Shown in pieces: positions 12,219 through 40,488 of a stretch of 64,000 nucleotides of DNA. The position numbers and the translations under genes were made by a program. This DNA is from Couchioplanes caeruleus (GTDB taxonomy: Bacteria; Actinomycetota; Actinomycetes; Mycobacteriales; Micromonosporaceae). The notes beneath the pieces were generated by a model. It was given only the letters and a program-made list of their open reading frames with translations. It ran no database searches and was not told where the DNA came from. The stretch covers positions 1,674,001 to 1,738,000 of the forward strand of contig NZ_RJKL01000001.1 of NCBI RefSeq assembly GCF_003751945.1, given 5' to 3'. The stretch's first letter is position 1. Each line of letters starts with the position of its first letter.

Positions 12219-12237
12219 GTCACCCCGCGAGGATGAG
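12219..12237. promoter_or_regulatory. MalT-box-like palindrome, site 1
   Basis: GTCACCC-N5-GGATGAG, 33 nt upstream of the GH63-like gene start and directly beyond the end of the SulP gene, so it can serve only the glycosidase genes. One of twelve such sites. Confidence 0.6.
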
Positions 12238-12241
12238 CACC

Positions 12242-13999
12242 TCACTCGCCGGAGTCGTCCCGCCCCGGCGACGGCACGGGGGCCGCCCAGTCGGCGCCGG
12301 TCCGGGTCCGGTAGGCCGCCACCGCGTCGTCCAGCGTGGGGAAGAAGTGCGCCGGATCGAGGGGGCCGGTCAGGCCGTAACGATCGATCTTGCGCCGTAC
12401 GGGGTCCTTCAGCTCCGCCAGCACCAGCGACACCCCGCGGGCGTCGAGCTCGCGGTCGAGCGCTTCGAGCATGTCCGCGGCCGTGGTATCGACGTCCGTG
12501 ACCGGCTCCGCGGCCAGCACGATCCAGCGCGGCGCGGGTTCCGTGCGGGCCAGGCGCCGGATCTGGTCGCGGAACACCCGGGCGTTGGCGAAGATGAGCG
12601 GCGCGTCGAAGCGGTACATCACCAGCCCCGGCAGGCGTTCGGCGTCCGGGTACGAGTGCACGTCGTGGTAACCCGGCACTCCCCGTGCCCGCCCCAGCAC
12701 CGTCTGGTACGGCCACCACACCCGGCGGAAGACGTTGAGCACCGACAGCCCGACGGCGATGCCGATGCCGGGCAGGACGCCGAACACCGCCACGCCCAGG
12801 AACGCCGCGATCGACACGGAGAACTCGGTGTGGCGCCGGCGCCACAGCCCGAGGGTGCCGGGGACGTCGGCCAGCGACAGTGACGCGGCGATCACCACGG
12901 CGCCGAGCGCGGGCTGCGGCAGATCCCGCAACAGCCCCGGCGTCAGGACGAGCATCACCAGGATGACGGCCGCTCCCATCACCCCGGTCACCTGCGTACG
13001 GGCGCCGGACTGCTCGGCGACGGCGGTGCGGGACCCGCTGGTGCTGACCGGGAAGCCCTGGAAGAAGGAGGCCGCGATATTGGCCGCGCCGACGCCCTTC
13101 ATCTCCTGGTCGGCCCGGACCTCCTGGCCGGTGCGGGCGGCGAAGGAGGACGCGGTCGAGACGGTGTCGGTCAGGGACACGACCGTGATGCCGACCGCGC
13201 CGACCAGCAGCAGCGCGAGCTGCGACCAGGTCGCGTGGGGCAGGGTGAACGGCGGAAGGCCCTCCGGCAGCGGCCCGACGAGCTTCACGCCCCGCTCGCC
13301 GAGGTCCAGCAGCCAGGTGGCGGCGATCGCACCGACGACCGCGACCAGCACCGCCGGGACCTTGGGCAGCCAGCGTTGCAGGGCCACGATGACGGCCAGG
13401 GTGAACAGGCCCACCCCGAGGGCGGCCGGCACGACGTCGCCCGCGGCCAGCCCACCGAGGAAGCCGGACAGCTCGTCGATCAGGCCGGTGCCGTCGACGG
13501 AGAACCCGCACAGCTTCGGGAGCTGTCCCACCAGAATGGTCAGCGCGAGGCCGTTCATGTAGCCGATCTGCGTCGGCTTGGAGAGCAGGTCCGCGACGAA
13601 GCCCAGTTTCGCGATCCCGGCCACGGTCATGGTGAGGCCGACCAGCAGCGCGAGCATCGACGCGAGTCCCATGGCCACGACCGGGTCGCCGCCGGAGCCG
13701 ACGATCGGGATGAGCACCGCGGCGATCATCGGGCCGAGCGAGGAGTCGGGCCCGACCACGAGGATCCGCGAGGCGCCGAACAGGGCGTAGCCGAGCAGGC
13801 CGAGCACCGTGGTGTAGAGGCCGGTGATCGGCGGGAGACCGGCGAGTTCGGCGTACGCCATGCCCTGCGGCACCAGCAGGGTCGACAGGACCAGGCCGGC
13901 GACGAGGTCCTTGGGCAGCCAGCCCCGGCGGTAGGTCGACACGACCTGCACGCCGGGAACCCAGCGGCCCAGCGCGCCGGTGGCGCCGGGCACGGTCAT
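12242..13999 (-). CDS. SulP-family anion permease with STAS domain
   Basis: A 585-aa protein with roughly 11-12 membrane helices followed by a cytoplasmic STAS domain (about residues 440-560, ending with ELKDPVRRKIDRYGL). The SulP signature LVPQGMAYAELAGLPPITGLYT is present early, and the DQEMKGVGAANIAASFFQGFP and SGSRTAVAEQSGA segments line the transport core. The family moves sulfate, bicarbonate or other anions. The ATG overlaps the stop of the upstream Rv1733c-like gene (ATGA). Confidence 0.92.
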   Translation of the reverse strand: MTVPGATGALGRWVPGVQVVSTYRRGWLPKDLVAGLVLSTLLVPQGMAYAELAGLPPITGLYTTVLGLLGYALFGASRILVVGPDSSLGPMIAAVLIPIVGSGGDPVVAMGLASMLALLVGLTMTVAGIAKLGFVADLLSKPTQIGYMNGLALTILVGQLPKLCGFSVDGTGLIDELSGFLGGLAAGDVVPAALGVGLFTLAVIVALQRWLPKVPAVLVAVVGAIAATWLLDLGERGVKLVGPLPEGLPPFTLPHATWSQLALLLVGAVGITVVSLTDTVSTASSFAARTGQEVRADQEMKGVGAANIAASFFQGFPVSTSGSRTAVAEQSGARTQVTGVMGAAVILVMLVLTPGLLRDLPQPALGAVVIAASLSLADVPGTLGLWRRRHTEFSVSIAAFLGVAVFGVLPGIGIAVGLSVLNVFRRVWWPYQTVLGRARGVPGYHDVHSYPDAERLPGLVMYRFDAPLIFANARVFRDQIRRLARTEPAPRWIVLAAEPVTDVDTTAADMLEALDRELDARGVSLVLAELKDPVRRKIDRYGLTGPLDPAHFFPTLDDAVAAYRTRTGADWAAPVPSPGRDDSGE

Positions 14000-14562
14000 C
14001 GCCGGGTCCACTGCGGGCCGACGACCAGCCACTCCGCCTCCCACGAGCGCAGCCGGCGGCGGTCGAGGCGCCAGATGACGATGCGGCGCACGCCGCCGAG
14101 GCCGGTGACCACTGCGCCACCGGCCAGCACCGCGGCCAGCGTGGCGTCCGCCACGGCACTGCGCGGCGCGGGCTGGGGAACGACCTGGCCGTGGTCGTCG
14201 AGCCAGATCGGCACCGTGCTGCCGGCACGGGCGCCGGCCGGGGCCGAGACCTCCCCCGAGCCGATCGTGCCGTCGGGCCCGGTCCACCGGGACCGCACCG
14301 GGACGGTTCCCGTCGCGGACCACCCGTGGCCGTCCTGAACGGAGGCGTCCTCCACGAGAGTGGCCGTCGCCGGGAGGCGGTGCTGCCGCTCCCACGCGAC
14401 CGCCCGCTCGACGTCGCGATAGGTCGTGCGCGCCGCCCACCAGGCCGTCCAGGGTGCGGCGAAGAGCATCGTCATGACCAGGACCAGCGTCAGCCAGGCC
14501 TGCACCCGGTCCGTGCCGCGGCGCAGCGGGACCCGGGCCCATGGCATCCGCTTGCGCCACAT
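13996..14562 (-). CDS. Rv1733c-like two-helix membrane protein
   Basis: A 188-aa protein with a basic N-terminus, one membrane helix around residues 25-48 (LTLVLVMTMLFAAPW), an extracytoplasmic beta-rich domain, and a second helix near residue 140. The pattern RRGTDRVQAWLTL and VPIWLDDHGQVV matches actinobacterial relatives of M. tuberculosis Rv1733c, a DosR-regulon dormancy antigen whose function is unknown. A GGGGAGG sits 6 nt before ATG 14562. Stop overlaps the SulP start. Confidence 0.75.
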   Translation of the reverse strand: MWRKRMPWARVPLRRGTDRVQAWLTLVLVMTMLFAAPWTAWWAARTTYRDVERAVAWERQHRLPATATLVEDASVQDGHGWSATGTVPVRSRWTGPDGTIGSGEVSAPAGARAGSTVPIWLDDHGQVVPQPAPRSAVADATLAAVLAGGAVVTGLGGVRRIVIWRLDRRRLRSWEAEWLVVGPQWTRR

Positions 14563-14576
14563 GCCGGCCTCCCCTG

Positions 14577-15029
14577 TCACGAACGGCCGTACGCGCCGGC
14601 GACCTCGGCCCCGTGCGCGGCCACCGCGTAGATGACGATGACGGTCATGGTGATGGCCGTGACGGCCCACACCGGGTAGATGGCCAGGAAGGCGAAGTTC
14701 ACCAGCGCGGCGGCGCCCGCCAGCAGGATCGCGGTGACGCGCGCCCAGCGAAGCCCGCGCACCAGCCCCACGCCCGCCGTCACGGCGACGGCACCGATCA
14801 CCAAGTGGCACCAGGCCAGCGCCGTCAACCCCACGGGCAGCAACAGGTCCGCGCGACCGCCGGCCAGCACCTCGGGGCGCAGCAGGGCGACGAGGCCGGT
14901 GCCGGCGTGCACCGCGCCGAGCAGGACGAGCATGACCCCGCCGAGCAGCACCGCCGCGACCCATCCCGACGCCTCGCTGTGCTCCACCCCGGCGTACGGC
15001 GCATCCGCCGTCGGACCCTGCGTTGACAT
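14577..15029 (-). CDS. DUF7144-family membrane protein, copy 1
   Basis: A 150-aa four-helix membrane protein. Helix 1 begins SGWVAAVLLGGVMLVLLG, the second pair carries LTALAWCHLVIGAVAVTAG, and it ends IYPVWAVTAITMTVIVIYAVAAHG. The W-x-HL and YPVW-x(5)-I motifs are shared with two further copies in this window (28296 and 35212). AGGAGGATGCG precedes the ATG. Function unknown; co-directional with the DUF1269 gene upstream and the Rv1733c-like gene downstream. Confidence 0.85.
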   Translation of the reverse strand: MSTQGPTADAPYAGVEHSEASGWVAAVLLGGVMLVLLGAVHAGTGLVALLRPEVLAGGRADLLLPVGLTALAWCHLVIGAVAVTAGVGLVRGLRWARVTAILLAGAAALVNFAFLAIYPVWAVTAITMTVIVIYAVAAHGAEVAGAYGRS

Positions 15030-15111: not shown

Positions 15112-15618
15112 CTACTGGGCGGACGCGGTGGCCTCCTCGCCGTGCAGCGCCTTCTGCAGCTCGGCCTCGGTCTCCTTGGGCAGCGAAGACTTGAGCACCG
15201 TGCCGCCGAAGCGGGCCAGTCCCTCCACGGCCTTGTCGGGCGTGACGTGCTCGACCACGAGGAACAACGCCGACGTGCCGGGTTGCAGCATGTCGCGTAC
15301 CTGGGACTGGAACTCCTTGTTGATCGCACCCTTGGTCATCTTGCCCATCAGGGCACCCAGGCCGGCGCCGACGGCCATGCCGAGGAACGGGATGAAGAAC
15401 AGGATGCCGAACAGGAGGCCCCAGAACATTCCCCAGGTGGCGCCGCCCTTCACCGCATGATGATTGGTGGTGACGTGGAACTTGCCCTCGCTGTCGCGGA
15501 TGATCGCCGCGATGGCGTCGGGCTGGATGATGAGGTCGTTGGCGAGCCGCTGTGCCTCGAGTGACGCGGCCGTCGCGGTGGTCTCGTCCGGGTAGCCGAT
15601 GGCGACGAGTGTTGCCAT
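15112..15618 (-). CDS. DUF1269-family membrane stress protein, copy 1
   Basis: A 168-aa protein of the DUF1269 type: a soluble N-terminal region (VAIGYPDETTATAASLEA), a glycine-rich hydrophobic hairpin (GMFWGLLFGILFFIPFLGMAVGAGLGALMGKM, residues ~62-93), then a soluble region including PGTSALFLVVEH. The Gly-zipper hairpin may insert in or touch the membrane. Function unknown; such genes are often stress-induced. The palindrome at 15687-15705 lies 68 nt upstream. A second copy is at 34014. Confidence 0.85.
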   Translation of the reverse strand: MATLVAIGYPDETTATAASLEAQRLANDLIIQPDAIAAIIRDSEGKFHVTTNHHAVKGGATWGMFWGLLFGILFFIPFLGMAVGAGLGALMGKMTKGAINKEFQSQVRDMLQPGTSALFLVVEHVTPDKAVEGLARFGGTVLKSSLPKETEAELQKALHGEEATASAQ

Positions 15619-15686: not shown

Positions 15687-15705
15687 CTCATTCCGCACGA
15701 ATGAA
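15687..15705. promoter_or_regulatory. MalT-box-like palindrome, site 2
   Basis: CTCATTC-N5-GAATGAA, a perfect inverted repeat apart from the end bases, in the divergent region between the DUF1269 gene (68 nt) and the plus-strand gene at 15739 (33 nt). Confidence 0.6.
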
Positions 15706-15738
15706 GCACCGGCGGACGCGCACGGGCAGTGTGTCGCC

Positions 15739-16596
15739 ATGGGCGTGCGATACGAGATCTGTGTGGAGGGTTTCCTCGGCCCGGTGCTGCGTTCCGCGTT
15801 CGCCGGAGTCCGTTGCCAGGCCGTCGCCCGACAGTCGACGATCCACGCCCGCCTGTCCGCCGAGGGACTACGGCGACTGCTGGCCGATCTGGACCGCTCG
15901 GGCGTCGAGCTGATCCACGTGCGGTGCCAGGACGCCGACCCCGCGCAAGGCCGGTCACCCTCGATGGATGAGGCGGCGCCGCGCGGGGCACCGGACGATC
16001 GGCCGAGGGGTGGTTCTCGCCCTGCTGTCCGGTCGGGAAGGGAGTTGCAGCAGATGTCCATCGGTCCGGTCCAGATGATCGTCCTGGGTTTTTCCCATCC
16101 GAACTTCCACGGTGAGGTCATCGCGGAGCTCGAGAAGCTGCGCAAGAGCGACACCGTACGCGTCATCGACGCGCTCGCCGTCTACAAGGACGCCCGCGGC
16201 GACCTGGAGGTCGAGCACCTGAGCAACCTGTCCACCGAGGAGGCGGTGGAGCTGGGCAGCAAGATCGGCGCGCTGGTCGGGCTCGGCATCGACGGCGAGG
16301 CCGGCATGGAGGCCGGTGCCGCGGAGGGCGCCGAGACCGCCGCGACGACAGGCCTGCACGCGTTCACCGACGCGGACGCGTGGGACATCATCGCGGAGAT
16401 CCCCGACGACAGCGCCGCGGCACTGCTGCTGATCGAACACCACTGGGCCGTACCGCTGCGCGACGCCATCGCGCGGGCCGGCGGCTACCGGATCGGCGAC
16501 GGCTTCATCAGCCCCCTCGACCTCGTCGAGATCGGCCTGGCGACCGCGCAGGAGGCCAAGGAGCTGCACGACCTCGAGACCGCGGCGGCCCGCTGA
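15739..16596 (+). CDS. Small YxVRVxG protein reading in frame into a DUF6325 protein
   Basis: From ATG 15739 one open frame of 285 codons continues with no stop to 16596. Residues 1-65 ([47 protein letters not shown]) form a small beta-alpha-beta-like domain homologous to the free-standing 80-aa protein at 26096. Residues ~66-105 are a low-complexity linker, and residue 106 onward is the DUF6325 protein annotated separately at 16054. A ribosome binding site and a palindromic regulatory site inside the linker argue that this was originally two genes whose intervening stop was lost. Whether the fused product is made cannot be told. Confidence 0.55.
15954..15972. promoter_or_regulatory. MalT-box-like palindrome, site 3
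   Basis: GTCACCC-N5-GGATGAG, located inside the in-frame linker between the small domain and DUF6325, 81 nt before ATG 16054. Its position suggests an independent promoter for the DUF6325 part. Confidence 0.55.
16054..16596 (+). CDS. DUF6325-family protein
   Basis: A 180-aa protein beginning [28 protein letters not shown], with a central acidic glycine-rich hydrophobic stretch ([21 protein letters not shown]) and a C-terminal [22 protein letters not shown] segment. This layout resembles DUF1269 proteins but with a less hydrophobic hairpin, and fits the DUF6325 family of actinomycetes; function unknown. ATG 16054 has AAGGGAG about 9 nt upstream. Likely co-transcribed with the Arg-rich peptide gene that follows. 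Confidence 0.75.
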
Positions 16597-16750: not shown

Positions 16751-16769
16751 TTCATCCGTGACGGGTGGC
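16751..16769. promoter_or_regulatory. MalT-box-like palindrome, site 4
   Basis: TTCATCC-N5-GGGTGGC, between the terminator and the gene at 16804, 34 nt before its ATG. Confidence 0.5.
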
Positions 16770-16803
16770 GCGATCCGCCGGTGCGAAGCGGGATCGTCGT
16801 GGC

Positions 16804-17310
16804 ATGACGACCACGGACCCGGCGGCGCAGCGCACGATCTCCCGGTGGGGCGACACGGCAGTGGGCGCGGCGTTCGAGGCGGAGGCGGCCGCGACCCGCC
16901 TGATCCGCGACCTCCGCCGGGTCACCGAGCAACGGCGGCGGCAGCTGGCCGAGCTGGCCGCACGGGGTGCGGCCGAGCGGGCCCGCTACCGGCGGCGGAC
17001 CGCGGAAGCGGCCGAAGCGGCGGTCACGGCCGTCGCGACGTCCCCGCTGGTCGACCACATCGTGGACAACCAGCTCCAGCGCGTACTGCGCCCAGTCGTG
17101 CATGCGGTGCTCGACGACGTCCTGCTGCTGCTGGAGAAGGAGCCCGACCGGATCCGGACGCTCATCCGCGGGCAGCGCGAGAGCATGGTGGACGAGCTGG
17201 TCGGCCGGCTGCGGACCGGCGCGGAAGCCGGCGACACCGCGGTGGACAGGCTGACCTTCCGCATGTTCCACCACCCCGGCCCGAAGCCGGAACCGCCGGT
17301 CGACCTGTGA
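16804..17310 (+). CDS. Helical protein of unknown function
   Basis: A 168-aa soluble, strongly helical and highly charged protein. Residues 25-75 are rich in A, E and R (RDLRRVTEQRRRQLAELAARGAAERARYRRR) and could form a coiled coil; the C-terminal half includes LDDVLLLLEKEPDRIRTLI and a proline-rich end. Related proteins occur next to RDD-family genes in actinomycetes, and here the RDD gene begins 7 nt later, so the pair probably acts together at the membrane. No enzyme motif recognised. Confidence 0.7.
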   Translation: MTTTDPAAQRTISRWGDTAVGAAFEAEAAATRLIRDLRRVTEQRRRQLAELAARGAAERARYRRRTAEAAEAAVTAVATSPLVDHIVDNQLQRVLRPVVHAVLDDVLLLLEKEPDRIRTLIRGQRESMVDELVGRLRTGAEAGDTAVDRLTFRMFHHPGPKPEPPVDL

Positions 17311-17735: not shown

Positions 17736-18524
17736 TCAAGGCCGCCGCGGCCAGCATTGCGTATGACCGGAGAGCCAGCCGGAGGCCGCCTGATGGCGCT
17801 CCTCGACGACGACCGCCTGCTCGTCCACGCGGATCACGGTCCACGACCGGCCGACTCCCCGGGTACGCCGGCTGACCGCGGTGCCCGCCACCACCTCGAC
17901 CAGCCGGTGCGCGGTCCCCGGCACCCGCACGAGGGCCGCCGCGGGCAGATGGGTGTGCCCGGCCAGCAGCAGATCCACCCGTGCGGCCGCGAGGGCCCGG
18001 AACAGCCGGCCCCGACCGGCGAGCCGGGCCGGGCCGGTTGCCCGGGGCGGATGATGCAGCGCCAGCATCCGGACCGCCTCCGGGGTTGCGGCGCCGAGGA
18101 CGGCAACGACGGCGTCGCTCTGGCGCCGCGAGACCCGGCCGCTCTTCCAGCGCCAGGCCGGCGCGGTGTGGAGCCCGAGCGCGGTCAGGCCGGGCAGCCG
18201 CACCACCGGGTCGAGGTCGGACCGGACCAGCCGACGATACCGCCGGTACGGCGCCACCAGCCGCGCGGCGCTGACCAGGGGCACGTCGTGGTTGCCGAGC
18301 ACCACGAGCAGGGGCCCGGGCAGCCGGTCGAGCAGCTCCCGCGCCTGGCGGAACTGGTGGACGCGGGCGCGCATGGTGCAGTCGCCCGTGACCACGGTGA
18401 GCGCCGGGCGTACGGCCGCGACGTCGGCGACCACCGACTCCACGGCATCCGGATCGTGGGCGCCCAGGTGCAGGTCCGACAGATGCGCGACGACGAGTGG
18501 GGCCCTGCGGCCCGGTGCGGTCAC
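17736..18524 (-). CDS. Calcineurin-like metallophosphoesterase
   Basis: A 262-aa protein with the metal-binding blocks in order: HLSDLHLGAHD, VVTGDCTMRA (D replaces the usual second position of GD-x-x), VLGNHDVPL, LALHHPP and AGHTHLP. These define the class-III calcineurin-like phosphoesterases. Substrate could be a nucleotide, lipid or protein phosphate. Its GTG overlaps the stop of the lipid-kinase-like gene upstream, so the two form a unit; a lipid kinase paired with a phosphatase would be logical. Confidence 0.88.
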   Translation of the reverse strand: MTAPGRRAPLVVAHLSDLHLGAHDPDAVESVVADVAAVRPALTVVTGDCTMRARVHQFRQARELLDRLPGPLLVVLGNHDVPLVSAARLVAPYRRYRRLVRSDLDPVVRLPGLTALGLHTAPAWRWKSGRVSRRQSDAVVAVLGAATPEAVRMLALHHPPRATGPARLAGRGRLFRALAAARVDLLLAGHTHLPAAALVRVPGTAHRLVEVVAGTAVSRRTRGVGRSWTVIRVDEQAVVVEERHQAASGWLSGHTQCWPRRP

Positions 18525-19861
18525 GCCCGGCCGGCGGGCAGGGCCAGCCGGCGCAGCCGGACCCAGTCCAGCTCGGGCCGGGGCGAGCCGGCGCCGGGGC
18601 GCCTGCGCGGCACCCGGACCCGCAGGACGCCGGGCCGGATCGTGCACCGCACCGGCGTGGGCATGGTCACGGCCTCGCCGTCGATGCCCACGGACACCGA
18701 CGGCGCATCGGCGTCGATCACCGCCTCGTCGGCGGTGACGACGGTCAGCGACCCCGACCGCCGCCGTCCGCGCACCAGCCCGGCCGCGTCGAACGCGCCG
18801 CGTACCCTGACGGCCAGGACCCCGAGCACACCGCCGTCGAGCCGGAGCCGGTGACCGAGGCCGGCGATGTCGCCGGTGGCGTAGGGGTTGTTGCTGACCA
18901 GGACGGCCTGCGGACCCGCCACGACCGTGTCGCCCGCCGACAGCCGCAGCCCGGGCCCCCGCTGACCGGTGAGCAGGCCGGGCAGCAGGTCGAGGGTCGT
19001 CCGGGTCTTGTCGTCGCGGTAGGCGGGGCTCTGCACGACGGCCGCGTACGCGCCGAACGACGCGTTGTTGACGAACGTCCGCGATCCCACCATGCCCAGG
19101 TCCACGCGCAGCTCGACGCCGTCGGTGAGGGCGTCGAGGCAACTGGCGGGGTCCTCCCGGTCGAGGCCCAGGTCGAGGGCGAAGTGGTTGCGGGTGCCCG
19201 CCGAGACGACCATGAAGGGCAGCCCGTGCTCCGCGGCGATGCCGGCCACCAAGGCCTGGGTGCCGTCGCCGCCGGCGACACCCAGCAGGTCGGCCCCGTC
19301 GTGGACCGCCTGCCGGGCCAGCCCGGCCACGTCCGTGCCGGCGCCGTCGAGCAGCACGACCTCGGCGCCGAGCGCCCTGGCCCGCTGCACCAGGCCGAAG
19401 CGGCCGACCTTGCCGCCGCCGGAGCGGGGATTCATGATCAGGTACGGGCGCCGCGGCGGTGGCGTGTCGTGTTCGCGGGGCCGGGCCGCGGATGCCGACA
19501 GGGCCTGCCGTCCCGCGGCCAGGGCCGCCGACCAGAGCAGCGCGAACACCACGACGACCCAGACCAGCCGGGCGCGTGCGTACAGCACGGCGACGGCCAG
19601 CGGCGCGAGGATCACGACCGCGGCGGCCAGCCAGCGCAGCAGTCCCCGATGGGTGAGGAACCACCACACCCCGGCGAGGGCGGTCGCCATGCCCGCCACC
19701 GCGACGACCAGCAGGGCGATCCCGCCGCGCAGACCCGCCACGGCGAGCACGAGGACCGTCGCTGCGGCGGCGGCGAGGAAGGCGAAGCGCGCCAGCCACC
19801 GCTGCGCGGGCCGCGAGGCCGCCGGCAGCGCGGACGCGCTGCGGGCTCCGGAGTCGACCAT
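18521..19861 (-). CDS. Diacylglycerol/lipid-kinase-family protein with N-terminal membrane domain
   Basis: About 446 aa. Residues 1-130 hold four or more membrane helices; the C-terminal part is a DAGK catalytic domain with YLIMNPRSGGGKV, GVAGGDGTQALVAG and AGTRNHFALDLGL, the classic nucleotide-binding signatures. It likely phosphorylates a lipid or sphingoid/isoprenoid substrate at the membrane. ATG 19861 has GCGAGG about 9 nt upstream; ATGs at 19870 and 19900 are alternatives. Two palindromic regulatory sites lie upstream, the nearer one 34 nt away. Confidence 0.87.
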   Translation of the reverse strand: MVDSGARSASALPAASRPAQRWLARFAFLAAAAATVLVLAVAGLRGGIALLVVAVAGMATALAGVWWFLTHRGLLRWLAAAVVILAPLAVAVLYARARLVWVVVVFALLWSAALAAGRQALSASAARPREHDTPPPRRPYLIMNPRSGGGKVGRFGLVQRARALGAEVVLLDGAGTDVAGLARQAVHDGADLLGVAGGDGTQALVAGIAAEHGLPFMVVSAGTRNHFALDLGLDREDPASCLDALTDGVELRVDLGMVGSRTFVNNASFGAYAAVVQSPAYRDDKTRTTLDLLPGLLTGQRGPGLRLSAGDTVVAGPQAVLVSNNPYATGDIAGLGHRLRLDGGVLGVLAVRVRGAFDAAGLVRGRRRSGSLTVVTADEAVIDADAPSVSVGIDGEAVTMPTPVRCTIRPGVLRVRVPRRRPGAGSPRPELDWVRLRRLALPAGRA

Positions 19862-19895
19862 GACCGCCATCCTCGCGTCCGGCCGGGAACCGCAC

Positions 19896-19914
19896 CTCAT
19901 CTCCGCAGGGTGAG
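19896..19914. promoter_or_regulatory. MalT-box-like palindrome, site 5
   Basis: CTCATCT-N5-GGGTGAG in the divergent region between the lipid-kinase-like gene (34 nt to its start) and the M48 protease gene. Confidence 0.6.
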
Positions 19915-19933: not shown

Positions 19934-19952
19934 CCTATCCAGCCAGGATGAG
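19934..19952. promoter_or_regulatory. MalT-box-like palindrome, site 6
   Basis: CCTATCC-N5-GGATGAG, 63 nt before the M48 protease start. It lies 38 bp centre-to-centre from site 5, so each divergent gene appears to have its own site. Confidence 0.6.
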
Positions 19953-20015
19953 GCGGCCGCCGAGCCCGCGGCGGACGCTGTGCCCGACCACCGGTCCCCG
20001 AAGGAGGAGGGCACT

Positions 20016-22400: not shown

Positions 22401-22419
22401 ACCATCCTCCGGGGAGGAG
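22401..22419. promoter_or_regulatory. MalT-box-like palindrome, site 7
   Basis: ACCATCC-N5-GGAGGAG, 66 nt from the DUF2252 start and 96 nt from the regulator start at 22516. GGAGGA is also an allowed MalT half-site. The central CCTCC/GGAGG could alternatively be a simple hairpin, so this is a weaker member. The 181-nt region holds no other feature. Confidence 0.45.
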
Positions 22420-22515
22420 TACCGCGAAATTATCCGATTCGGACGATGTGGAGGGTGAGTCCGGCGACAAGGCTGGAGGCGAAGCTCCGTGTTCACCGCA
22501 CAGGAGGGAGGGCAC

Positions 22516-25224
22516 GTGCGCGCTGATCTCGTTGTCACCACGCCTGTGATCGGTCCGGAGACGGACGGCGATCCGCTGCTGGAGTCCAAGTTCGAGATTC
22601 CCGAACGACCGCGTTTCATGGTGGCACGGCCCCGCCTGCTCGACACGCTCATCGCCCGCAGAGACGCCCCGGTCACGCTGGTGGTCGGTCCGGCGGGCAG
22701 CGGCAAGACCCAACTGGCGGCCTCCTGGGTCCGCGGGGAGGCCGCGCACGCCGCCGTCGCCTGGATCACCCTCGAGGACGAGGACGACCAGGCGTCGGGT
22801 TTCTGGACGTACGTGGTGGCGGCGCTACGCCGCGCCGGGGTCGCCATCTCCCCGGCGTTGACGGCCCTGCCCTCGCGGTCGGGCGTGGACAGATCGTTCC
22901 TGGTACGGCTGGCAGCGGAGCTGTCGGAACACGAGATGCCCCTGCTGCTCGTCCTCGACGGCGCGTCCAGCCTCGCCGGCGAACAGTGGGCCGCGGACCT
23001 GGAGTTCGTCCTGCGGCACACGAGCCCGGTGCTGCGGCTGGCGTTGATCGGCCGCTGGGACCCGCCCCTGCCGCTGCACCGGTACCGGCTCGCCGGACGA
23101 CTGACCGAGATCCGCAGCGAGAATCTCGCCTTCACCACCGAGGAGGCGGCCGAGCTCCTCGCGCTGCACGGCGTCGAGCTGAGCCCGCCGAGGCTGGCGT
23201 CGCTGCTGGAGCACACCGAGGGCTGGGCGGCCGGCCTGCGGTTGTTCGCCATGGCCCTGCAGGATCACCGCGACGCCGAACATCTCGTCGACACCATCAC
23301 CGGCAATGAGGCCACCATCGCGGAGTACTTCGTCGACGAGGTGTTGCGGGTCCAGCCACCGCATGTCCGGGCATTTCTCCTGGAAGCCAGCATCCTGGAC
23401 ACGTTCACTCCCGAGCTGGCCGAGGCCGTCACCGGGCGGGCCGACGCCCGGCGGCTGCTCGCGGAGCTCGAGCGGCGCAACGCTTTCGTCCAGCCGGCGG
23501 CCGAGTACTCGGCGACGTACCGGTTCCACCGCCTGTTCGCCGAGCTGCTGCGTGCCCAGCTCATGTGCGAGGCCCCGGAACGGACGGCGAATCTCCACGG
23601 TCACGCCGCGGTCTGGCTGGCGGCGCACGGCCAGACCGTCGAGGCGGTCAGCCACGCCGTCAAGGCGCGGGACTGGCACGCGGCCGCCACGATCGCCATC
23701 GACCACTACATGATCGGCCGGCTGGTGCTCGAGGGCCGTAGCTGCCGGCTGGGTGCCCTGCTGGGGCAGCTTCCGGACGACTGCGAGGACGCCGAGGCCG
23801 CCGTCGTGGCCGCCGCGCTGGCCCTGGCCGACGGCTCCGTCGACCGCTGTGCCCGGCATCTTGCCCGAGCCGAGGACCTGGTCATCCGCCGCGGGTGGGA
23901 GTACACCGAGGCCCTCGCCCTGGCCGACTCGGTCCTCGGCGTCCTGCTCGCGGCGGCGCGCGACGATCATCCCCAGGTGCTGCAGTTCAGCCCGGCCATC
24001 GAGCAGGCACTCGGCCGGGTGCCGGCCGCGGTGCTGACGAACCGTCCCGAGCTGCGGCTGCTGACCACGGCCGCCCAAGGTTCGGCCCACAGCCACCTCG
24101 GCGCCGTCGACGCGGCCGCGACGTGCCTGACGCAGGTCGCGACCTCCACGGCGGCCGGTTGCCGGGGCCTGGCGATCGACTCCCTCGCCCATCTGTCGCT
24201 CGTCGAGGCCTACCGGGGGCGGCTCGACCGGGCCGGCAAGCTGGCCACCGAGGCCCTCGAGGCCGCCGACCAGTGCGGGCTGGAACCTGCCCGCAGACCC
24301 GTGCTCGCCCATCTGACCCTGGCCTGGGTGGCGATGGAGCGGTACCAGGTCGACGCGGCCGGACGTCATCTGCGGGCCTCGGACCCGAGGCATCACCCGC
24401 GGACCGACGGTGTCGCAGCGGCCGCCTACGGCCTGGTGAAGTCGCGCCGGTTGCAGGCGCGTGGCGAGCTGCGAGGTGCCATGGGACTGCTCGAGGAGGC
24501 TCTGACGGCGCCCGGTCCCCCGCCTCCGGAGTGGCTCGCGCGGGAGCTGACCGTGTCGCACGGCCACCTGCTGATCGTCACCGGTCGGCCCGGCGAGGCG
24601 GTCGAGACCGTCGGCCGGTTCGCCACGCCGCATCCGGCGGAGGTGGTCGTGCTCCATGCCGCGGCCCTCGCCGCCGGCGGGGCACCGGAGCAGGCGGCCG
24701 AGACCCTCGTGCCGGTGCTGGCCTCGACCGCGCTGACCCCACCGACCTGTGTGGAGGCCTGGCTCGTCATGGCCACGATCGCCGAGCAGCTCGGCGAGGT
24801 CGAGCGGGCACGCAACTCCCTGCGGCACGCGTTGCGCGCCGCCGGACCGGAGTTCCAGCGCCGCGCCGTCCAGCAGGTCTGGGCACGGCTACGCCGGGTG
24901 CTGCGCGACGACGACGAGCTCGCCCAGCAGTACCGGCTCCTGCAGGGCGAGACGCCCGCGGTTCCACGCCCGGGCGTACGCGCGACGGATGCCGGCGGCG
25001 TGGTGATCGTCGAGACGCTGAGCCGGCGCGAGATGGAGGTGCTGCACGGCATGGCGGCCATGCTGCCGACCGAGGAGATCGCCGCCACGTTGTACGTCTC
25101 GGTCAACACGGTCAAGACCCACGTCCGCAGCATCCTGCGGAAACTCTCCGCCTCGCGACGCAACGAGGCGGTGCGCCGGGCCCGCTCGCTGGGCCTGATC
25201 GGCGACGTCACTCGCCCGGGATGA
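22516..25224 (+). CDS. MalT-type LuxR-family (LAL) transcriptional regulator 1
   Basis: A 902-aa regulator in the MalT/LAL layout: N-terminal STAND ATPase with Walker A (GPAGSGKTQ, residues ~58-66) and a Walker B-like LLLVLDGAS, winged-helix region, a long helical TPR-like sensor (about 350-800), and a C-terminal LuxR HTH (LSRREMEVL, EEIAATLYVSVNTVKTHVRSILRKL, ~832-890). Such proteins oligomerise with ATP and an effector, then activate promoters carrying GGAKGA boxes in the E. coli case. GTG 22516 is chosen for the AGGAGGGAGGG 5 nt before it; GTG 22489 is in frame. Confidence 0.9.
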   Translation: MRADLVVTTPVIGPETDGDPLLESKFEIPERPRFMVARPRLLDTLIARRDAPVTLVVGPAGSGKTQLAASWVRGEAAHAAVAWITLEDEDDQASGFWTYVVAALRRAGVAISPALTALPSRSGVDRSFLVRLAAELSEHEMPLLLVLDGASSLAGEQWAADLEFVLRHTSPVLRLALIGRWDPPLPLHRYRLAGRLTEIRSENLAFTTEEAAELLALHGVELSPPRLASLLEHTEGWAAGLRLFAMALQDHRDAEHLVDTITGNEATIAEYFVDEVLRVQPPHVRAFLLEASILDTFTPELAEAVTGRADARRLLAELERRNAFVQPAAEYSATYRFHRLFAELLRAQLMCEAPERTANLHGHAAVWLAAHGQTVEAVSHAVKARDWHAAATIAIDHYMIGRLVLEGRSCRLGALLGQLPDDCEDAEAAVVAAALALADGSVDRCARHLARAEDLVIRRGWEYTEALALADSVLGVLLAAARDDHPQVLQFSPAIEQALGRVPAAVLTNRPELRLLTTAAQGSAHSHLGAVDAAATCLTQVATSTAAGCRGLAIDSLAHLSLVEAYRGRLDRAGKLATEALEAADQCGLEPARRPVLAHLTLAWVAMERYQVDAAGRHLRASDPRHHPRTDGVAAAAYGLVKSRRLQARGELRGAMGLLEEALTAPGPPPPEWLARELTVSHGHLLIVTGRPGEAVETVGRFATPHPAEVVVLHAAALAAGGAPEQAAETLVPVLASTALTPPTCVEAWLVMATIAEQLGEVERARNSLRHALRAAGPEFQRRAVQQVWARLRRVLRDDDELAQQYRLLQGETPAVPRPGVRATDAGGVVIVETLSRREMEVLHGMAAMLPTEEIAATLYVSVNTVKTHVRSILRKLSASRRNEAVRRARSLGLIGDVTRPG

Positions 25225-25225: not shown

Positions 25226-25281
25226 GTACCACGACGAGGGTCGGCCCAGGCTGAGTGCCGGCCGGCCGAAGGAGGACGACG

Positions 25282-27704: not shown

Positions 27705-27723
27705 CTCACTCGCGGCGGATGGC
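27705..27723. promoter_or_regulatory. MalT-box-like palindrome, site 9
   Basis: CTCACTC-N5-GGATGGC, centred between the divergent antiporter gene (62 nt) and the gene at 27780 (56 nt), placed so that it could serve both. Confidence 0.55.
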
Positions 27724-27779
27724 GCGGCGGAATTCACCGCCGGGCGAGCATACGGCGACAGCCGAGCGGAGGAGGTCCC

Positions 27780-28295: not shown

Positions 28296-28751
28296 ATGTC
28301 GGACACGCAGCAGAGGCCGCCCGGCTACACCCCCGACGAGCCGTACGAGGTGCCGAGTGGCCGCCAAGCCACCGCCTGGGTGGGCTTTGTGTTCTTCGGC
28401 GCCATCATGCTGTTGATGATGGGCAGCTTCCAGGCCATCGAGGGCTTCGTCGCGCTCTTCAAGGACGGCTACTACCTGGTGGCCGAGGACGGCCTCGTTC
28501 TCACCATCGACTACACGGCGTGGGGCTGGACCCATCTGTTCCTCGGGCTCGTCGCCGTCGCCGTCGGACTCGGCATCCTGCTCGGCCAGATGTGGGCGCG
28601 CGTGCTCGGCATCGTGATCGCCGTCCTGAGCGCGCTGGCCAACATCGCGTTCCTGCCGGCGTACCCGGTCTGGTGCACGATCGTCATCGCGATGGACATC
28701 CTGATCATCTACGCCCTGGCGGTGCACGGCCGCGAGGTCAGGTCCCGCTGA
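28296..28751 (+). CDS. DUF7144-family membrane protein, copy 2
   Basis: A 151-aa four-helix membrane protein: TAWVGFVFFGAIMLLMMGSFQAIEG, YTAWGWTHLFLGLVAVAVG, MWARVLGIVIAVLSALANIAF and YPVWCTIVIAMDILIIYALAVHG. It is closer to the 35212 copy (both have an F-x-DG-x-Y loop and a YxxWGW motif) than to the copy at 14577. GAGGAGAGGAAAGG precedes the ATG. Function unknown. Confidence 0.87.
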   Translation: MSDTQQRPPGYTPDEPYEVPSGRQATAWVGFVFFGAIMLLMMGSFQAIEGFVALFKDGYYLVAEDGLVLTIDYTAWGWTHLFLGLVAVAVGLGILLGQMWARVLGIVIAVLSALANIAFLPAYPVWCTIVIAMDILIIYALAVHGREVRSR

Positions 28752-29876: not shown

Positions 29877-30400
29877 GACTGATCCTCGGCCTGTTCGCCA
29901 TCGCCGTCGGTGCCGCCGCCTTCGCCTGGCCCTCCGCCACCGTCCAGGTCGTCGGCTTCCTCTTCGGACTGAATCTGGTGGTGACGGGCTTCATCCGGGC
30001 CGCGCTGCTGTTCTTCGTCCCGGACTACCCGCTGATCTACCGCGTCGTCGGCATCGTCTTCGGCGTCCTCACCGGGATCGTCGGGATCCTGTGCCTGCGC
30101 AACGTCGCGGGTTCGGTGATCCTGCTGCTGGTCGTGATCGCCATCGGCTGGCTGCTGGACGGCCTGGTGGAGCTCTTCACGGCCATCGGCACCCCGGCCG
30201 CCCACGGCTCGGGCTGGCGGATCGGCAGCGGCCTGCTGATGATCCTCGGCGCGATCGCCGTCCTGGTGTGGCCGAGGCTCGGCCTCGCCACGTTCGTCGC
30301 CGTCGGGGCCACGGTCCTGGTCTTCGTCGGCATCGTCCAGGTGCTCGGCGCGATCGCCGGGCTGCGGGCGGCCCGCAGGGAAACCATCCCCGCCGGGTGA
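29858..30400 (+). CDS. HdeD-like (DUF308) membrane protein
   Basis: A 180-aa protein with six short membrane helices arranged as a duplicated three-helix unit, as in HdeD: LRLILGLFAIAVGAAAFAWPSATV in the first half, GWRIGSGLLMILGAIAVLVWPRLG in the second. E. coli HdeD contributes to acid resistance; the role in actinomycetes is unproven. GAGGGAGGAAG precedes ATG 29858, inside the end of the AI-2E gene. A palindromic site overlaps its stop codon. Confidence 0.88.
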   Translation: MHRETLRLILGLFAIAVGAAAFAWPSATVQVVGFLFGLNLVVTGFIRAALLFFVPDYPLIYRVVGIVFGVLTGIVGILCLRNVAGSVILLLVVIAIGWLLDGLVELFTAIGTPAAHGSGWRIGSGLLMILGAIAVLVWPRLGLATFVAVGATVLVFVGIVQVLGAIAGLRAARRETIPAG

Positions 30401-30401: not shown

Positions 30402-30475
30402 GGATCGCCTCCGGACGGCCACGAAGGTGGAGCCCGGCCGGGCGGTTCCCGGCCGGCATCGGCAGGGGGCACGCC

Positions 30476-34628: not shown

Positions 34629-34647
34629 CTCATCCCCACCGGATGAG
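34629..34647. promoter_or_regulatory. MalT-box-like palindrome, site 11 (best match)
   Basis: CTCATCC-N5-GGATGAG, with 8-bp perfect arms if one more base on each side is counted (34628-34648). It lies in the divergent gap between DUF1269 copy 2 (84 nt) and the DUF6069 gene (74 nt). A second element, GGGAC-N4-GACCC-like at about 34668-34681, resembles a weak DosR box and was not given its own entry. Confidence 0.65.
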
Positions 34648-34721
34648 GCACGTCCGGCGCCCGCCCGGGACCGTCGACCCACGGGCGGCCGTAGGCGCCG
34701 CCATGGGCGAGGAGGGACACC

Positions 34722-35195
34722 ATGACGGCGATGCACCAGTCCGCGAGCCCCCAGCCGCGCGCCATGGTCAGTGCCGGCCGGCTCTGGGCCGGTGGCGGGG
34801 CGACCGCCGTCGTGGCGGCACTCATCGCGATCGTCGGGATCCTGGTCGGTCGCGGCCTGTTCGGCGTCGAGGTCCTCGCCCCGAAGGGCGCGGGCATCTG
34901 GGGCGACGCCAGCACCTTCTGGTACGCCTTCGGCGCGGCGATGCTCAGCCTCGTGGCGACCGGTCTCATGCACCTGCTGCTGCTGTTCACCCCGCGGCCG
35001 ATGCTGTTCTTCGGCTGGGTGATGACGCTGGCGACGGTGGTGGCGATGCTGGCGCCGTTCGTCACCGACAACGACCTGGGTTCCCGGATGTTCACCGCGG
35101 GCCTCAACTTCATCCTCGGCGTCGCCATCGGCTCGCTGGTGGCGGGCTCCGCGCACACGGCCGTCCGCACCGTGCCCGCGCCGCGCCGGTACTGA
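34722..35195 (+). CDS. DUF6069-family membrane protein
   Basis: A 157-aa protein with four membrane helices: AGRLWAGGGATAVVAALIAIVGILVGRGLFGVEVLAP, WYAFGAAMLSLVATGLMHLLL, MLFFGWVMTLATVVAMLAPF and the terminal LNFILGVAIGSLVAG. The RGLFGVxVLAP and AGLNFxLGVAIGSL patterns are those of the DUF6069 family of actinomycetes; function unknown. GAGGAGGGAC precedes the ATG. First gene of a plus-strand run to 37541. Confidence 0.8.
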   Translation: MTAMHQSASPQPRAMVSAGRLWAGGGATAVVAALIAIVGILVGRGLFGVEVLAPKGAGIWGDASTFWYAFGAAMLSLVATGLMHLLLLFTPRPMLFFGWVMTLATVVAMLAPFVTDNDLGSRMFTAGLNFILGVAIGSLVAGSAHTAVRTVPAPRRY

Positions 35196-35211: not shown

Positions 35212-35652
35212 ATGACACACAGTCAACGACTCCAGGCTGAGGAACCTGAGGTGACGACGGCGTGGCTCGGTTGGGTGGTCTTCATCGGCATCCTCCTGTG
35301 CGCCGCGGGCCTGATCAACGCCGTCCAGGGTCTCGTCGCGGTGTTCGACGACGGCTTCTACCGGGCGTCGACGTCGGCCCTGGTGGTCGACGTCGACTAC
35401 GTGGTGTGGGGATGGGCGTTGCTGATCTTCGGTATCACGCTCCTGTTCGCCGGCGCGGGAGTCGTGCTGGGCTACCGGTGGGCCCGGGTCGTCGGGGTGG
35501 TGGTGGCGTCCATCAACGCCCTGGTGAATCTGGGGTTCGCGACCGCGTACCCGACCTGGACGATCCTCGCGGTGTGCTTCGACGTGTCGGCGATCTATGC
35601 CCTGATCGTCCACGGTGGTGCGGCCAGGGCGCTGCGGGTCGGTCGAAAATGA
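35212..35652 (+). CDS. DUF7144-family membrane protein, copy 3
   Basis: A 146-aa four-helix membrane protein: TAWLGWVVFIGILLCAAGLINAVQG, FDDGFYRAST loop, YVVWGWALLIFGITLLFAG, and YPTWTILAVCFDVSAIYALIVHG. Third paralogue of the family in this window. Its stop overlaps the start of the next gene (ATGA). Function unknown. Confidence 0.87.
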   Translation: MTHSQRLQAEEPEVTTAWLGWVVFIGILLCAAGLINAVQGLVAVFDDGFYRASTSALVVDVDYVVWGWALLIFGITLLFAGAGVVLGYRWARVVGVVVASINALVNLGFATAYPTWTILAVCFDVSAIYALIVHGGAARALRVGRK

Positions 35653-37562: not shown

Positions 37563-40277
37563 TCAGATCAGCCCGTGCTCCCGGGCGTGGGTCACCGCCT
37601 CGCGGCGCCGGGCCACGTTCAGCTTGCGGTAGATCGACCTGAGATGCGCCTTGACGGTGTTGATCGACACGCCGAGCTCTGCGGCGATGTCGCCGGCCGT
37701 CAGCATGGTCGGCAGGTAACTCAGCACCTCCCGCTCCCGCTCGCTGAGTTCTCCGGCCTGGACGGCGGCGTTCTCGCCGGCGCCGGTCGCCGTCATCGCC
37801 TTCAGGACGTCCGACACGAACGCCGTGTTCCGGTACGTCAGCAGACTCTGCCGCCGGACGAGCCTCTCCAGGCGACCGCCCGCCATGGCGACGAACGGTG
37901 CGATCAGGCCCTCGTGCTCGGCCAGGGCGAAGGCACCGGCGAGCGCGGCGGCGGCGCGGAGGCCCTGCCTCCGGGCGTCGGCGATCAGGGCGGTCAGCAC
38001 ATGCGCCTCGACGGTGGTGACCGTCTCGGACAGCGGGGCGGGCGACCCGGCGAGCAACACCTCCGCGCGGGACAGCTCACCCACCGCGAAAGCAGCCCGG
38101 GCCTGGCACACCCGCTCGGCGAAGGTCGGTACGCCGACCCGCGCGTACCGCTCCTCGACCGCCTCGTACGCGCCCGTCCGCAGGTCCACCCGGGACTCGA
38201 TCAGCAGGAGCCACCGGTCGAGGGCGGGTGCCCTGATCCGTGAGCCCTGCTGCCGGCGCGCCTGCGCGAGCACGGCCCGTGCCACACTCGGCTCGCCCCG
38301 CGCCAGCGCCAGTTCGGCCTGACAGCCCAGCCAGGCCAACTGCTGCGCGGCTTCCGGCTCCTGGCAGAGCGCTCGCCGGCCCTGCTGGAGGGCACCCTCC
38401 GCCTGCGCCAGATCCCGGCGCCCGACGTGCACCAGCGTCATGGCCAGATGCGCGGCCACGGTCTGCCACGCGGACCTCCAGCCGCCCCGTTCCGCCAGGT
38501 CGAGGGCGGCCGTGGCGAGGCGGGTGGCTTCCTGGACCGATCCGTACATGATCTCGAGCAGGGCCCGGTGTCCCACCGCGTTGATCTCGACCAGCTCGGT
38601 GCCGGCGGCTCGCGCGGCGGTCGACGCGTTCCACAGGAACCGCTCCGCGAGATCCGTCTGTCCCAGCCAGAACAGCCCGACGCCTTTGAAGGTCAGCGCG
38701 ATCGCCCGATACTGCGCGGCGGCAGGTATCTCGGCGGTGCCGAACCTGCTGAGGGCGGTCAGCAGCCGCGTCGTTTCCGCGACGACCGCCGGCATGTCCC
38801 CGATCGCGCCGTGGACGCCCAGTTCGAGCGCGCGGATCGCCGTCTCGACCGGCGTCCGTTCCTCCTCGGGCCGCCCCTGCAGAAGTCCGCGCGCCGCCAC
38901 CAGACGTTCCGGGATCGCGTCCCAGTCCCCCGCGTCGAACAGCAGCAGTGCCGCGCACACCGTCAACTCCGCCGTCGTCGCCGACTCCGCGGCGGGTATG
39001 CCCCGCAGGGCCCGGACGAGCGCCGCCCCGTCGGACGACAGGATCAGCGGGACGGCCTGCGCGACCACCACACGGCCGACCAGAGGCCAGTCGCCGCCGG
39101 CGGACGCGTGACCGAGTGCCTGGTGGATCGAGCCATGGGCGAGATGCCAGCGTGCCGCCCGGCCGTGCAACTCCGGCACGCGGGGGGCGCATTCCAGGGC
39201 AAGATGATGCCGCAGCACGTCGCGGAGAAGCCGGTGGTAGCGGAACCACAGCGGCCGTGCACCGAGCCGGACGACGAAGTCGCCGGCCAGCTCGAGCTCC
39301 TCGAGGATCCGCCGGCCGTCGTCGTCCAGGGTGATCGCGTCTGCCAGGTCGCCGCAGAGCTGCTCAGAGATGCTCGTGCACAGCAGGAAGCGCAGCGTCC
39401 GCGGCGGTAGCTCGGCGAGGACCTCGTTCGTCAGATACTCGTCGACCGGCCGCACGTCGCCGGCGAATTCGGAGATCCGGTGCGGCCCACCCGGCGCGGT
39501 CAGGAAGTCGGCCGCCATCTGCAGGCCGGCCGGCCATCCTTGGGTGCGCTCGAGAAGCGCGACCACGTCGTTGCCGTCCAGGCGGAGGTCGAGGCGGGTG
39601 AACAACAGCGCTGCCTCCTCGGCGGTGAAGGCGAGATCGACGACCCGGATCTCCCTCAGGCCTCCCGCAAGACGCAGCCGGTACAACGGGAGCGCGGGCT
39701 CTGATCGGCTGATCAGGATGAGATGCAGATTCGGCCACGGACGGTCGATCAGCGTGCCCAATTCGCGAAGAACCTCACCATTTTCGAATTCCTGAAGGTC
39801 GTCGATCACCATGACCGTCGGCGTCGGCAACCGCAGGACGCCGCCGGCCAGGGCGCGAACCCGGGCGGCCGAGCGGACACCGTGCCACTCCTCCGGCGGA
39901 TCACCGTGCGGCACCGCCCCCGCCGCCCGCAACGCCGTCACCACGCCGGACCAGAAGGACTGCACGTCATCGTCGGCGCGATCCGCGGTGAGCCAGGCTA
40001 CCGGGAAGGGCCGGTCGTCCAACCAGGTCGAGACCAGCACGGTCTTTCCCCAGCCGGCGCCGCCACAGACGAGCGTCACGGGAACGTGCAGCGCCGCGTC
40101 GAGCACGCGGCTCAGCCGCGGACGAGGGACGTGCGCCCTGAACATCTGCGGCCGGGTCACCTTCGCCCCATCACCCGGGGTGGGCGCCGAAGGCCCGTGG
40201 CACCGGCGCGGTCGCCGGGTCGGCCGCCCCTGGGTCAGCGAGCCGGTCGCCCGTCCGGCCTTGTCGAAGACTTCCAC
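37563..40277 (-). CDS. MalT-type LuxR-family (LAL) transcriptional regulator 2
   Basis: A 904-aa regulator with the same layout as the one at 22516: Walker A GGAGWGKT (~72-79), Walker B VMVIDDLQEF, long helical sensor region, and C-terminal LuxR HTH (LSEREREVL, GDIAAELGVSINTVKAHLRSIYRKL, to GLI). The final helix region RKLNVARRREAVTHA is close to that of E. coli MalT (QKLGVAHRQDAVQHA). GTG 40277 has GGGGAGGG about 5 nt upstream. A 9-bp inverted repeat lies 28 nt before the start. Confidence 0.9.
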   Translation of the reverse strand: MEVFDKAGRATGSLTQGRPTRRPRRCHGPSAPTPGDGAKVTRPQMFRAHVPRPRLSRVLDAALHVPVTLVCGGAGWGKTVLVSTWLDDRPFPVAWLTADRADDDVQSFWSGVVTALRAAGAVPHGDPPEEWHGVRSAARVRALAGGVLRLPTPTVMVIDDLQEFENGEVLRELGTLIDRPWPNLHLILISRSEPALPLYRLRLAGGLREIRVVDLAFTAEEAALLFTRLDLRLDGNDVVALLERTQGWPAGLQMAADFLTAPGGPHRISEFAGDVRPVDEYLTNEVLAELPPRTLRFLLCTSISEQLCGDLADAITLDDDGRRILEELELAGDFVVRLGARPLWFRYHRLLRDVLRHHLALECAPRVPELHGRAARWHLAHGSIHQALGHASAGGDWPLVGRVVVAQAVPLILSSDGAALVRALRGIPAAESATTAELTVCAALLLFDAGDWDAIPERLVAARGLLQGRPEEERTPVETAIRALELGVHGAIGDMPAVVAETTRLLTALSRFGTAEIPAAAQYRAIALTFKGVGLFWLGQTDLAERFLWNASTAARAAGTELVEINAVGHRALLEIMYGSVQEATRLATAALDLAERGGWRSAWQTVAAHLAMTLVHVGRRDLAQAEGALQQGRRALCQEPEAAQQLAWLGCQAELALARGEPSVARAVLAQARRQQGSRIRAPALDRWLLLIESRVDLRTGAYEAVEERYARVGVPTFAERVCQARAAFAVGELSRAEVLLAGSPAPLSETVTTVEAHVLTALIADARRQGLRAAAALAGAFALAEHEGLIAPFVAMAGGRLERLVRRQSLLTYRNTAFVSDVLKAMTATGAGENAAVQAGELSEREREVLSYLPTMLTAGDIAAELGVSINTVKAHLRSIYRKLNVARRREAVTHAREHGLI

Positions 40278-40305
40278 GCCACCCTCCCCTTCGACAGCAG
40301 CCGGA

Positions 40306-40329
40306 TTCCATCGAAGACCGTCGATGGAA
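40306..40329. promoter_or_regulatory. Perfect 9-bp inverted repeat upstream of regulator 2
   Basis: TTCCATCGA-N6-TCGATGGAA, 28 nt before the GTG of regulator 2. It differs from the GGATGA palindromes (6-nt spacer, GATGGAA arms) but shares the GATGG core. It may be an autoregulatory operator or a promoter-region hairpin. Confidence 0.45.
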
Positions 40330-40469
40330 ACTCATGCTTCAGGGTGCTCCTGGGCTGGTTGCGATCCGCGTCGGCAGAGAACAGCACCGTCCTCGAGAGC
40401 GTGAGGGCCTTCCAGCGAATCACGCCTCCAGCCACGGATCAACGCTGCCACACCGGCGCCGCCGCGCAT

Positions 40470-40488
40470 CTCATCCGCGAAGGAGGAG
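40470..40488. promoter_or_regulatory. MalT-box-like palindrome, site 12
   Basis: CTCATCC-N5-GGAGGAG, 62 nt before the glutamate-cysteine ligase gene and 192 nt from regulator 2. The 273-nt gap 40278-40550 otherwise holds only the inverted repeat at 40306. Confidence 0.55.

Follow-up and report, generated by a model that had tools for sequence, protein, structure and literature searches.

Palindromic promoter sites and MalT-like LuxR regulators in a gene island of Couchioplanes caeruleus and in other actinobacterial families

A 64,000-nucleotide (nt) stretch of the Couchioplanes caeruleus genome (contig NZ_RJKL01000001.1, positions 1,674,001 to 1,738,000; referred to as the window) contains a gene island in which inverted repeats of the form TCAYYC-N5-GRRTGA (referred to as dyads) precede many genes, and in which two MalT-like ATPase-LuxR regulators of the LAL family, LAL1 and LAL2, are encoded. 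The dyads are very probably the binding sites of these island-encoded activators, mainly of LAL1. The window is an instance of the Micromonosporaceae MalT regulon already known from Actinoplanes sp. SE50/110 (Droste et al, 2020; PMC7567727); the author of an earlier note on this DNA knew of no actinobacterial regulon with this palindrome, but that article describes one and includes Couchioplanes caeruleus itself. What goes beyond the published account is the presence of the dyad and its -10 geometry beside MalT-like regulators in other families, the dyads with a -10 element on both sides, and the 5-bp spacer that sets the dyads apart from BldM sites. The two regulators are:

LAL1, 22546..25224, plus strand: MalT-like ATPase-LuxR regulator with a GerE helix-turn-helix (HTH) domain; an upstream GTG at 22489 is a possible start
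LAL2, 37563..40277, minus strand: MalT-like ATPase-LuxR regulator with a GerE HTH domain; match to TPR_MalT below the curated cut-off

Palindromes and promoter geometry

All twelve site coordinates of the earlier note proved correct when the window was scanned again, and the inverted repeat is real. The consensus given for it, YTCAYYC-N5-GRRTGAR, was too strict, as it is exact at 2 of the 12 sites, the other ten having one to three mismatches (three at 22401). A trimmed 17-bp form, TCAYYC-N5-GRRTGA, which begins 1 nt after each of the earlier coordinates, was used instead. It occurs five times exactly in the window, and 11 times when one mismatch is allowed, compared with a mean of 1.29 in 100 shuffled sequences (largest 6). 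Ten of these 11 are sites of the earlier note (its 19934 and 22401 are not among them), and the eleventh, which it did not list, falls within the LAL1 gene at 23882 and lacks a -10 element. All 11, as well as all 14 matches to the 19-bp form with up to two mismatches, fall within 12220-40487, which confirms that the urease, katG and enediyne parts of the window are free of sites. The whole 8.43-Mb genome contained 11 exact dyads, five of them inside 22 kb of the window, and none of the reversed control pattern; with up to one mismatch, there were 135 dyads versus 22 in the control. Six exact dyads are found outside the window, three of them at 992-1012 kb and the rest dispersed; five of the six have a -10 element. 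A second small cluster was seen at 991276-995123 of the same contig (G000:C1, locus L012), where two exact and two one-mismatch dyads, three of the four with a -10 element, surround a small gene for a membrane protein and a GH15-like gene called at 992962-994809, both of which probably also belong to the regulon.

Conservation was assessed in 60 genomes of the genus, including that of the window, with LAL1 scored as present at E ≤ 1e-80. LAL1 was found in 42 genomes and was absent from 18; LAL2 was found in 38. Genomes with LAL1 carried 7-38 exact dyads, those without it 0-8 (Mann-Whitney p = 7e-10, uncorrected for relatedness), and DUF7144, present in 41 of the 60, was found in none of the 18 genomes lacking LAL1. 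From the LAL1-positive genomes, 38 islands (1.49 Mb in total) were chosen by their LAL1 gene, leaving out G002, G011, G027 and G031. These islands hold 282 of the 719 exact dyads of the 38 genomes, and 235 of the 282 lie between called genes, although only ∼12% of island DNA is intergenic. With one mismatch allowed, the islands contained 525 dyads, the reversed control 3.

A canonical -10 element (TANNNT) was sought first next to the dyads and not found; the element there is xANNNT. The 38 islands supplied 417 intergenic dyads with at most one mismatch, 291 of them between divergent genes, and the element was established on the 704 flanks of these dyads that face a gene (103 coding dyads and a few near stretch ends were excluded). 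At offsets 22-24 from the dyad edge, xANNNT was present in 61.5% of flanks, compared with a mean of 6.4% elsewhere (maximum 10.1%). Counted by distinct site, ANNNT occurred at 23 or 24 nt on at least one side of 357 of 408 dyads, other pairs of offsets giving a mean of 29.2 and at most 54, and 88 of the 408 had the element on both sides. In the window, ANNNT at 23 or 24 nt from the 17-bp dyad was present on at least one side of all twelve sites of the earlier note, including 22401, and in neither of two decoys (23881 and 22492); this feature had played no part in choosing the sites.

Among 107 flanks in which a start codon follows 33-36 nt after the dyad, the A of the element was at offset 23 in 67 and at offset 24 in 34, and the -10 element therefore occupies positions -12 to -7 relative to the start codon. 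Just 4 of 106 genes starting 34-36 nt from a dyad were preceded by a Shine-Dalgarno-like word, compared with 171 of 314 genes starting at 45-115 nt. Judged from these sequence features, genes that begin 33-36 nt from a dyad should be leaderless, so that the dyad would span about -51 to -35. The dyad ends near -35 and is centred near -43, which is the geometry of a class-II activator site. Four window sites had been described as lying 33-34 nt from a start codon. Four were found at 33-35 nt, namely 12219, 15687, 16751 and 19896, with two of the starts re-read (12185 and 15739); the four genes, which begin 34-35 nt from a dyad, look leaderless. A different arrangement, direct repeats of the half-site, which peak at a spacer of 21 in the islands (37 cases), was dropped, as a dyad arm was involved in 2 of the 37 and no gene start lay within 150 nt in 35.

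That the dyads are chance palindromes, or hairpins with no regulatory role, has next to no probability. Nothing beyond the looseness of the first consensus speaks for it, while the spacer is free in sequence yet allowed a single length, the excess over the reversed control is that given above, and the distance to the -10 element is fixed.

The sites of the window are listed below; genes were called with a simple codon model, so start positions are approximate.

Dyad 1, 12220..12236: exact; -10 at 12192-12197 (minus strand), offset 23; ATG at offset 34; faces a glycoside hydrolase gene
Dyad 2, 15688..15704: exact; -10 at 15727-15732 (plus strand), offset 23; ATG at 15739 of a small gene that looks leaderless
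Dyad 3, 15955..15971: exact; -10 at 15994-15999 (plus strand); precedes the gene at 16054
Dyad 4, 16752..16768: one mismatch; -10 at 16792-16797 (plus strand); gene at 16804 looks leaderless
Dyad 5, 19897..19913: one mismatch; -10 at 19869-19874 (minus strand); diacylglycerol-kinase-like gene 18521-19861 looks leaderless
Dyad 6, 19935..19951: two mismatches in the 19-bp form; -10 at 19974-19979 (plus strand); precedes an M48 peptidase gene at 20016
Dyad 7 (weak), 22402..22418: three mismatches in the 19-bp form; -10 at 22442-22447 (plus strand), offset 24; precedes LAL1
Dyad 8, 25208..25224: exact; overlaps the end of LAL1; -10 at 25247-25252 (plus strand); precedes a PPK2 gene at 25282
Dyad 9, 27706..27722: one mismatch; -10 at 27746-27751 (plus strand); precedes the gene at 27780
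Dyad 10, 30384..30400: one mismatch; at the end of a DUF308 gene; -10 at 30423-30428 (plus strand); precedes a P-type ATPase gene at 30476
Dyad 11, 34630..34646: exact; -10 at 34669-34674 (plus strand); precedes a DUF6069 gene at 34722
Dyad 12, 40471..40487: one mismatch; -10 at 40510-40515 (plus strand); precedes a GCS2 gene at 40551
DUF7144 genes (Pfam): 28296..28751 (plus strand), 14577-15029 (minus strand) and 35251-35652 (plus strand)

The glycoside hydrolase gene facing dyad 1, called at 9447-12218, probably starts at 12185, with a leaderless ATG 34 nt from the dyad. On their opposite sides, dyad 2 has a DUF1269 gene (15112-15618) and dyad 9 an exchanger gene (26353-27642). A second ANNNT faces left of dyad 11, where no minus-strand gene was called, and that of dyad 12 (40442-40447) faces LAL2 on the minus strand. 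The small gene starting at 15739, which in relatives is free-standing and encodes 66-81 residues, here runs in frame without a stop into the gene at 16054-16596, although the two are separated by a dyad that has its own -10 element.

LAL1, LAL2 and the published regulon

Both proteins have the hallmarks of LAL regulators, being about 900 residues long with an ATPase domain and a C-terminal LuxR-type HTH. Their GerE matches are above the cut-off, those to AAA_16 and AAA_22 below it, and their ATPase domains match that of the solved MalT structure 8bob (E values of 1e-39 and 3e-36 for the pair). With the NCBIfam MalT model NF003420 they scored 292.3 (LAL1) and 277.8 bits (LAL2) against an equivalog cut-off of 537, and thus do not qualify as MalT proper. 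Within LAL1, conservation is highest at the HTH end (mean identity of 0.89, compared with 0.41-0.67 elsewhere in the protein), the recognition helix in the genus reading NTVK, or NTIK in some LAL2 proteins. The nearest named relative of LAL1 that was found, from C. caeruleus subsp. azureus, is 91% identical. With both genes lying within the island, the proposal of the earlier note that a MalT-type palindromic regulon encodes its regulators inside itself is supported.

The E. coli MalT box, GGGGA(T/G)GAGG as cited in PMC7567727, has a related half-site and lies in the -35 region, and E. coli MalT shares the ATPase-LuxR architecture; the window differs in that the site is an inverted repeat with a 5-bp spacer and in that both regulators score far from the MalT cut-off. 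No maltose genes were found among the annotated window and island proteins (Pfam annotation of 30 window proteins and ten others). Other LAL regulators have been described (PMC3282765; PMC9628970), and according to the accessible text of the latter their binding sites are unlike this dyad, the authors stating that no consensus can be predicted.

Much closer is the 51-gene maltose-regulated region of Actinoplanes sp. SE50/110 (PMC7567727, as far as its accessible text goes). There, 17 promoters carry TCATCC-5nt-GGATGA at a distance of 34.4 ± 1.0 nt from mapped start sites. When the MalT homologue ACSP50_3915 was deleted, expression on maltose fell for 32 of the 51 genes according to microarrays and for 42 of them according to reverse-transcription quantitative PCR, and overexpression of the homologue raised 39 genes of the region; the maltose genes were unaffected. 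A second MalT-like gene, ACSP50_3917, lies nearby, and related motif-bearing regions were reported in four Micromonosporaceae, Couchioplanes caeruleus and three others. A further article merely cites the Actinoplanes region (PMC11205506, accessible text). The window shares with SE50/110 the palindrome before many island genes, the MalT-like regulator and a second MalT-like gene in a gene-rich island; the distance to the transcription start, with the palindrome ∼34 nt away and over the -35 region, would likewise agree, going by the -10 elements and the putatively leaderless starts. The geometry, derived here before that article was consulted, fits the start sites that it reports. The two regions differ in the genes they contain and in gene order; PPK2 is found in the window and is absent from the SE50/110 region. 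Leaderless or two-sided use of the sites, and families beyond Micromonosporaceae, are not treated in the accessible text.

Window LAL1 probably corresponds to ACSP50_3915, since LAL1 is found in more genomes of the genus than LAL2 (42 versus 38 of 60) and ACSP50_3915 is called the more conserved of the two in the article. The suggestion in the earlier note that both regulators use the sites is supported in part: ACSP50_3915 deletion lowers most of the region, and deletion of ACSP50_3917 is said to have only slight effects (unpublished data mentioned in PMC7567727). The same slight effects count against the idea that LAL2 is the main activator, or that the two act as a pair on the same sites. 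This is very unlikely, even though the two proteins have similar recognition helices (of the SVNTVKTHVRSILRKL and S(V/I)NT(V/I)KAHMRSIYRKL types), LAL2-type genes occur in 34 of the 38 islands, a dyad lies ≤350 nt upstream of 14 of 34 LAL2 genes, and at some distant loci the LAL next to the dyads falls outside the LAL1 clade. Apart from being found in fewer genomes than LAL1, LAL2 has no match in genome G046, which nevertheless has seven dyads.

Co-occurrence alone cannot tell LAL1 from a regulator encoded elsewhere that binds the dyads while LAL1 is merely co-inherited with the island, and several dyads lie far from the island. Such a regulator is nonetheless a very slim prospect, given that, when the LAL1-type gene is deleted or overexpressed in Actinoplanes, the region responds as expected for an activator (PMC7567727) and that dyads adjoin LAL genes in other families too. 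No other DNA-binding protein was found among the annotated conserved families of the 38 islands, for which Pfam annotation, restricted to the 40 proteins mentioned above, is partial.

Dyads beside LAL genes in other actinobacterial families

At least one exact dyad was present in 267 of 396 genomes sampled across the phylum. The highest counts noticed were in family f20 (16 and 19, in two genomes), family f16 (8-10, in four) and f2/g4 (10 and 12, in two); genomes of genus g8, which is probably Streptomyces, had up to 11. The composite pattern of dyad, 23 bases and ANNNT reached 16 per genome (G087), whereas its control never exceeded two. LAL1 relatives, sought at E ≤ 1e-40 in 16 dyad-rich and 16 dyad-poor genomes, were found in 13 of the former and 4 of the latter; G082 is an exception, having a LAL and one exact dyad. 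Several dyad matches of genome G230 have identical flanking sequence and may be part of some repeated element or gene rather than of promoters.

Fifteen LAL loci outside the genus were inspected. Ten had dyads (39, of which 38 non-coding) and five had none. Omitting the coding dyad, 36 of 38 had a -10 element at 23 or 24 nt on at least one side, compared with 9% at other offsets. The arms at these ten loci are mostly TCACCC, the genus preferring TCATCC. The recognition helix is NTVK at the dyad-bearing loci and NTMR, NTLR, DTVK or ATVK at the five dyad-free loci (56 kb); that an NTVK-type helix goes with dyads is a lead rather than a rule, coming from 15 loci grouped after the dyads had been seen. 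In a tree, four g8 LALs join LAL1 with full support, and those of f16 and f2/g4 form another clade. Nonomuraea gerenzanensis had four dyads, all with a -10 element and one of them coding by the gene calls used here; the single dyad of Embleya sp. NBC_00896 had a -10 element. A candidate further case is Embleya sp. NBC_00888 (L223), with one dyad that has a -10 element and a LAL whose helix the gene calls did not recover. On the Streptomyces anulatus plasmid NZ_CP109519 (L222), three of four dyads had the element. This plasmid, typed as mobilizable, carries the LAL gene and the dyads beside genes for a class II glutamine amidotransferase, MFS, DUF308 and SHOCT proteins and an acylglycerol kinase; the module can therefore travel.

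BldM is a LuxR-type response regulator whose homodimer in Streptomyces binds TCACcCgnncGgGTGA, with the same arms and a 4-bp spacer (PMC4125116, accessible text). The identical half-site TCACCC/GGGTGA and the LuxR-type HTH would favour a BldM-like response regulator as the binder. Counts of 5-bp versus 4-bp spacers were 282 versus 0 in the 38 islands, 5 versus 0 in the window and 27 versus 0 in 17 stretches around distant LAL genes, and dyad number tracks the presence of LAL1. BldM was rejected as binder of the island dyads on the spacer counts, and a BldM-like regulator of any kind is scarcely credible here. The two systems differ in regulator type, response regulator versus large ATPase, and in spacer length, and share the half-sites, so that one spacer base appears to separate two networks.

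In a literature search with little subscription coverage, no description of the module outside Micromonosporaceae was found. TCACCC-N5-GGGTGA dyads followed after 22-23 bp by a -10 element adjoin genes for LALs with NT(V/I)K helices. Such loci occur in probable Streptomyces genomes and in another family of the same order, as well as in families deeper in the phylum and on the mobilizable S. anulatus plasmid. The MalT-like LAL and its N5 dyad are therefore probably a promoter module that is old in the actinobacterial phylum rather than peculiar to Micromonosporaceae, kept apart from the BldM network by one spacer base.

Proposed working and meaning

Several observations weigh against LAL-type activators, above all LAL1, as the binders of the dyads. 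Genus genomes lacking LAL1 still carry up to eight dyads, and in the phylum sample G156, G230 and G411 have 9, 7 and 5 exact dyads with no LAL match at E ≤ 1e-40. A dyad lies ≤350 nt upstream of just 6 of 39 LAL1 genes as called, and that of LAL1 in the window is the weakest there. In the accessible text of PMC7567727, direct DNA binding by the MalT homologue is not reported. Finally, -10 elements on both sides were counted, in a set near-identical to that above, at 94 of 412 dyads, compared with 122 expected if the sides were independent; most sites thus seem tuned to one side.

If LAL1 acts as the evidence suggests, a signal (maltose-linked in Actinoplanes) together with ATP would switch it on, and it would bind the dyad directly, the near arm ending at about -35 and the centre lying near -43. 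It would then bring RNA polymerase to the weak xANNNT element starting 22-23 bp after the dyad, standing in for a -35 box. Where genes diverge, the symmetric dyad between them could serve one or both sides, and genes beginning at the transcription start would be leaderless. The genes present (PPK2, P-type ATPase, exchanger, M48 protease, DUF7144, DUF1269 and others) may reflect a response concerned with energy or the envelope. The label of stress island for the region was guessed from the names of its genes; the published comparison is of maltose with glucose.

The window adds a further case of the published regulon and checks its promoter geometry independently. Should the wider pattern be confirmed, sequence alone would suffice to predict a regulator for many actinobacterial promoters that lack annotation, and DUF7144, DUF1269, DUF6325 and other genes of unknown role could be tested as one response. 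The two LuxR-type regulators would then also be a clean example of separation by a single spacer base.

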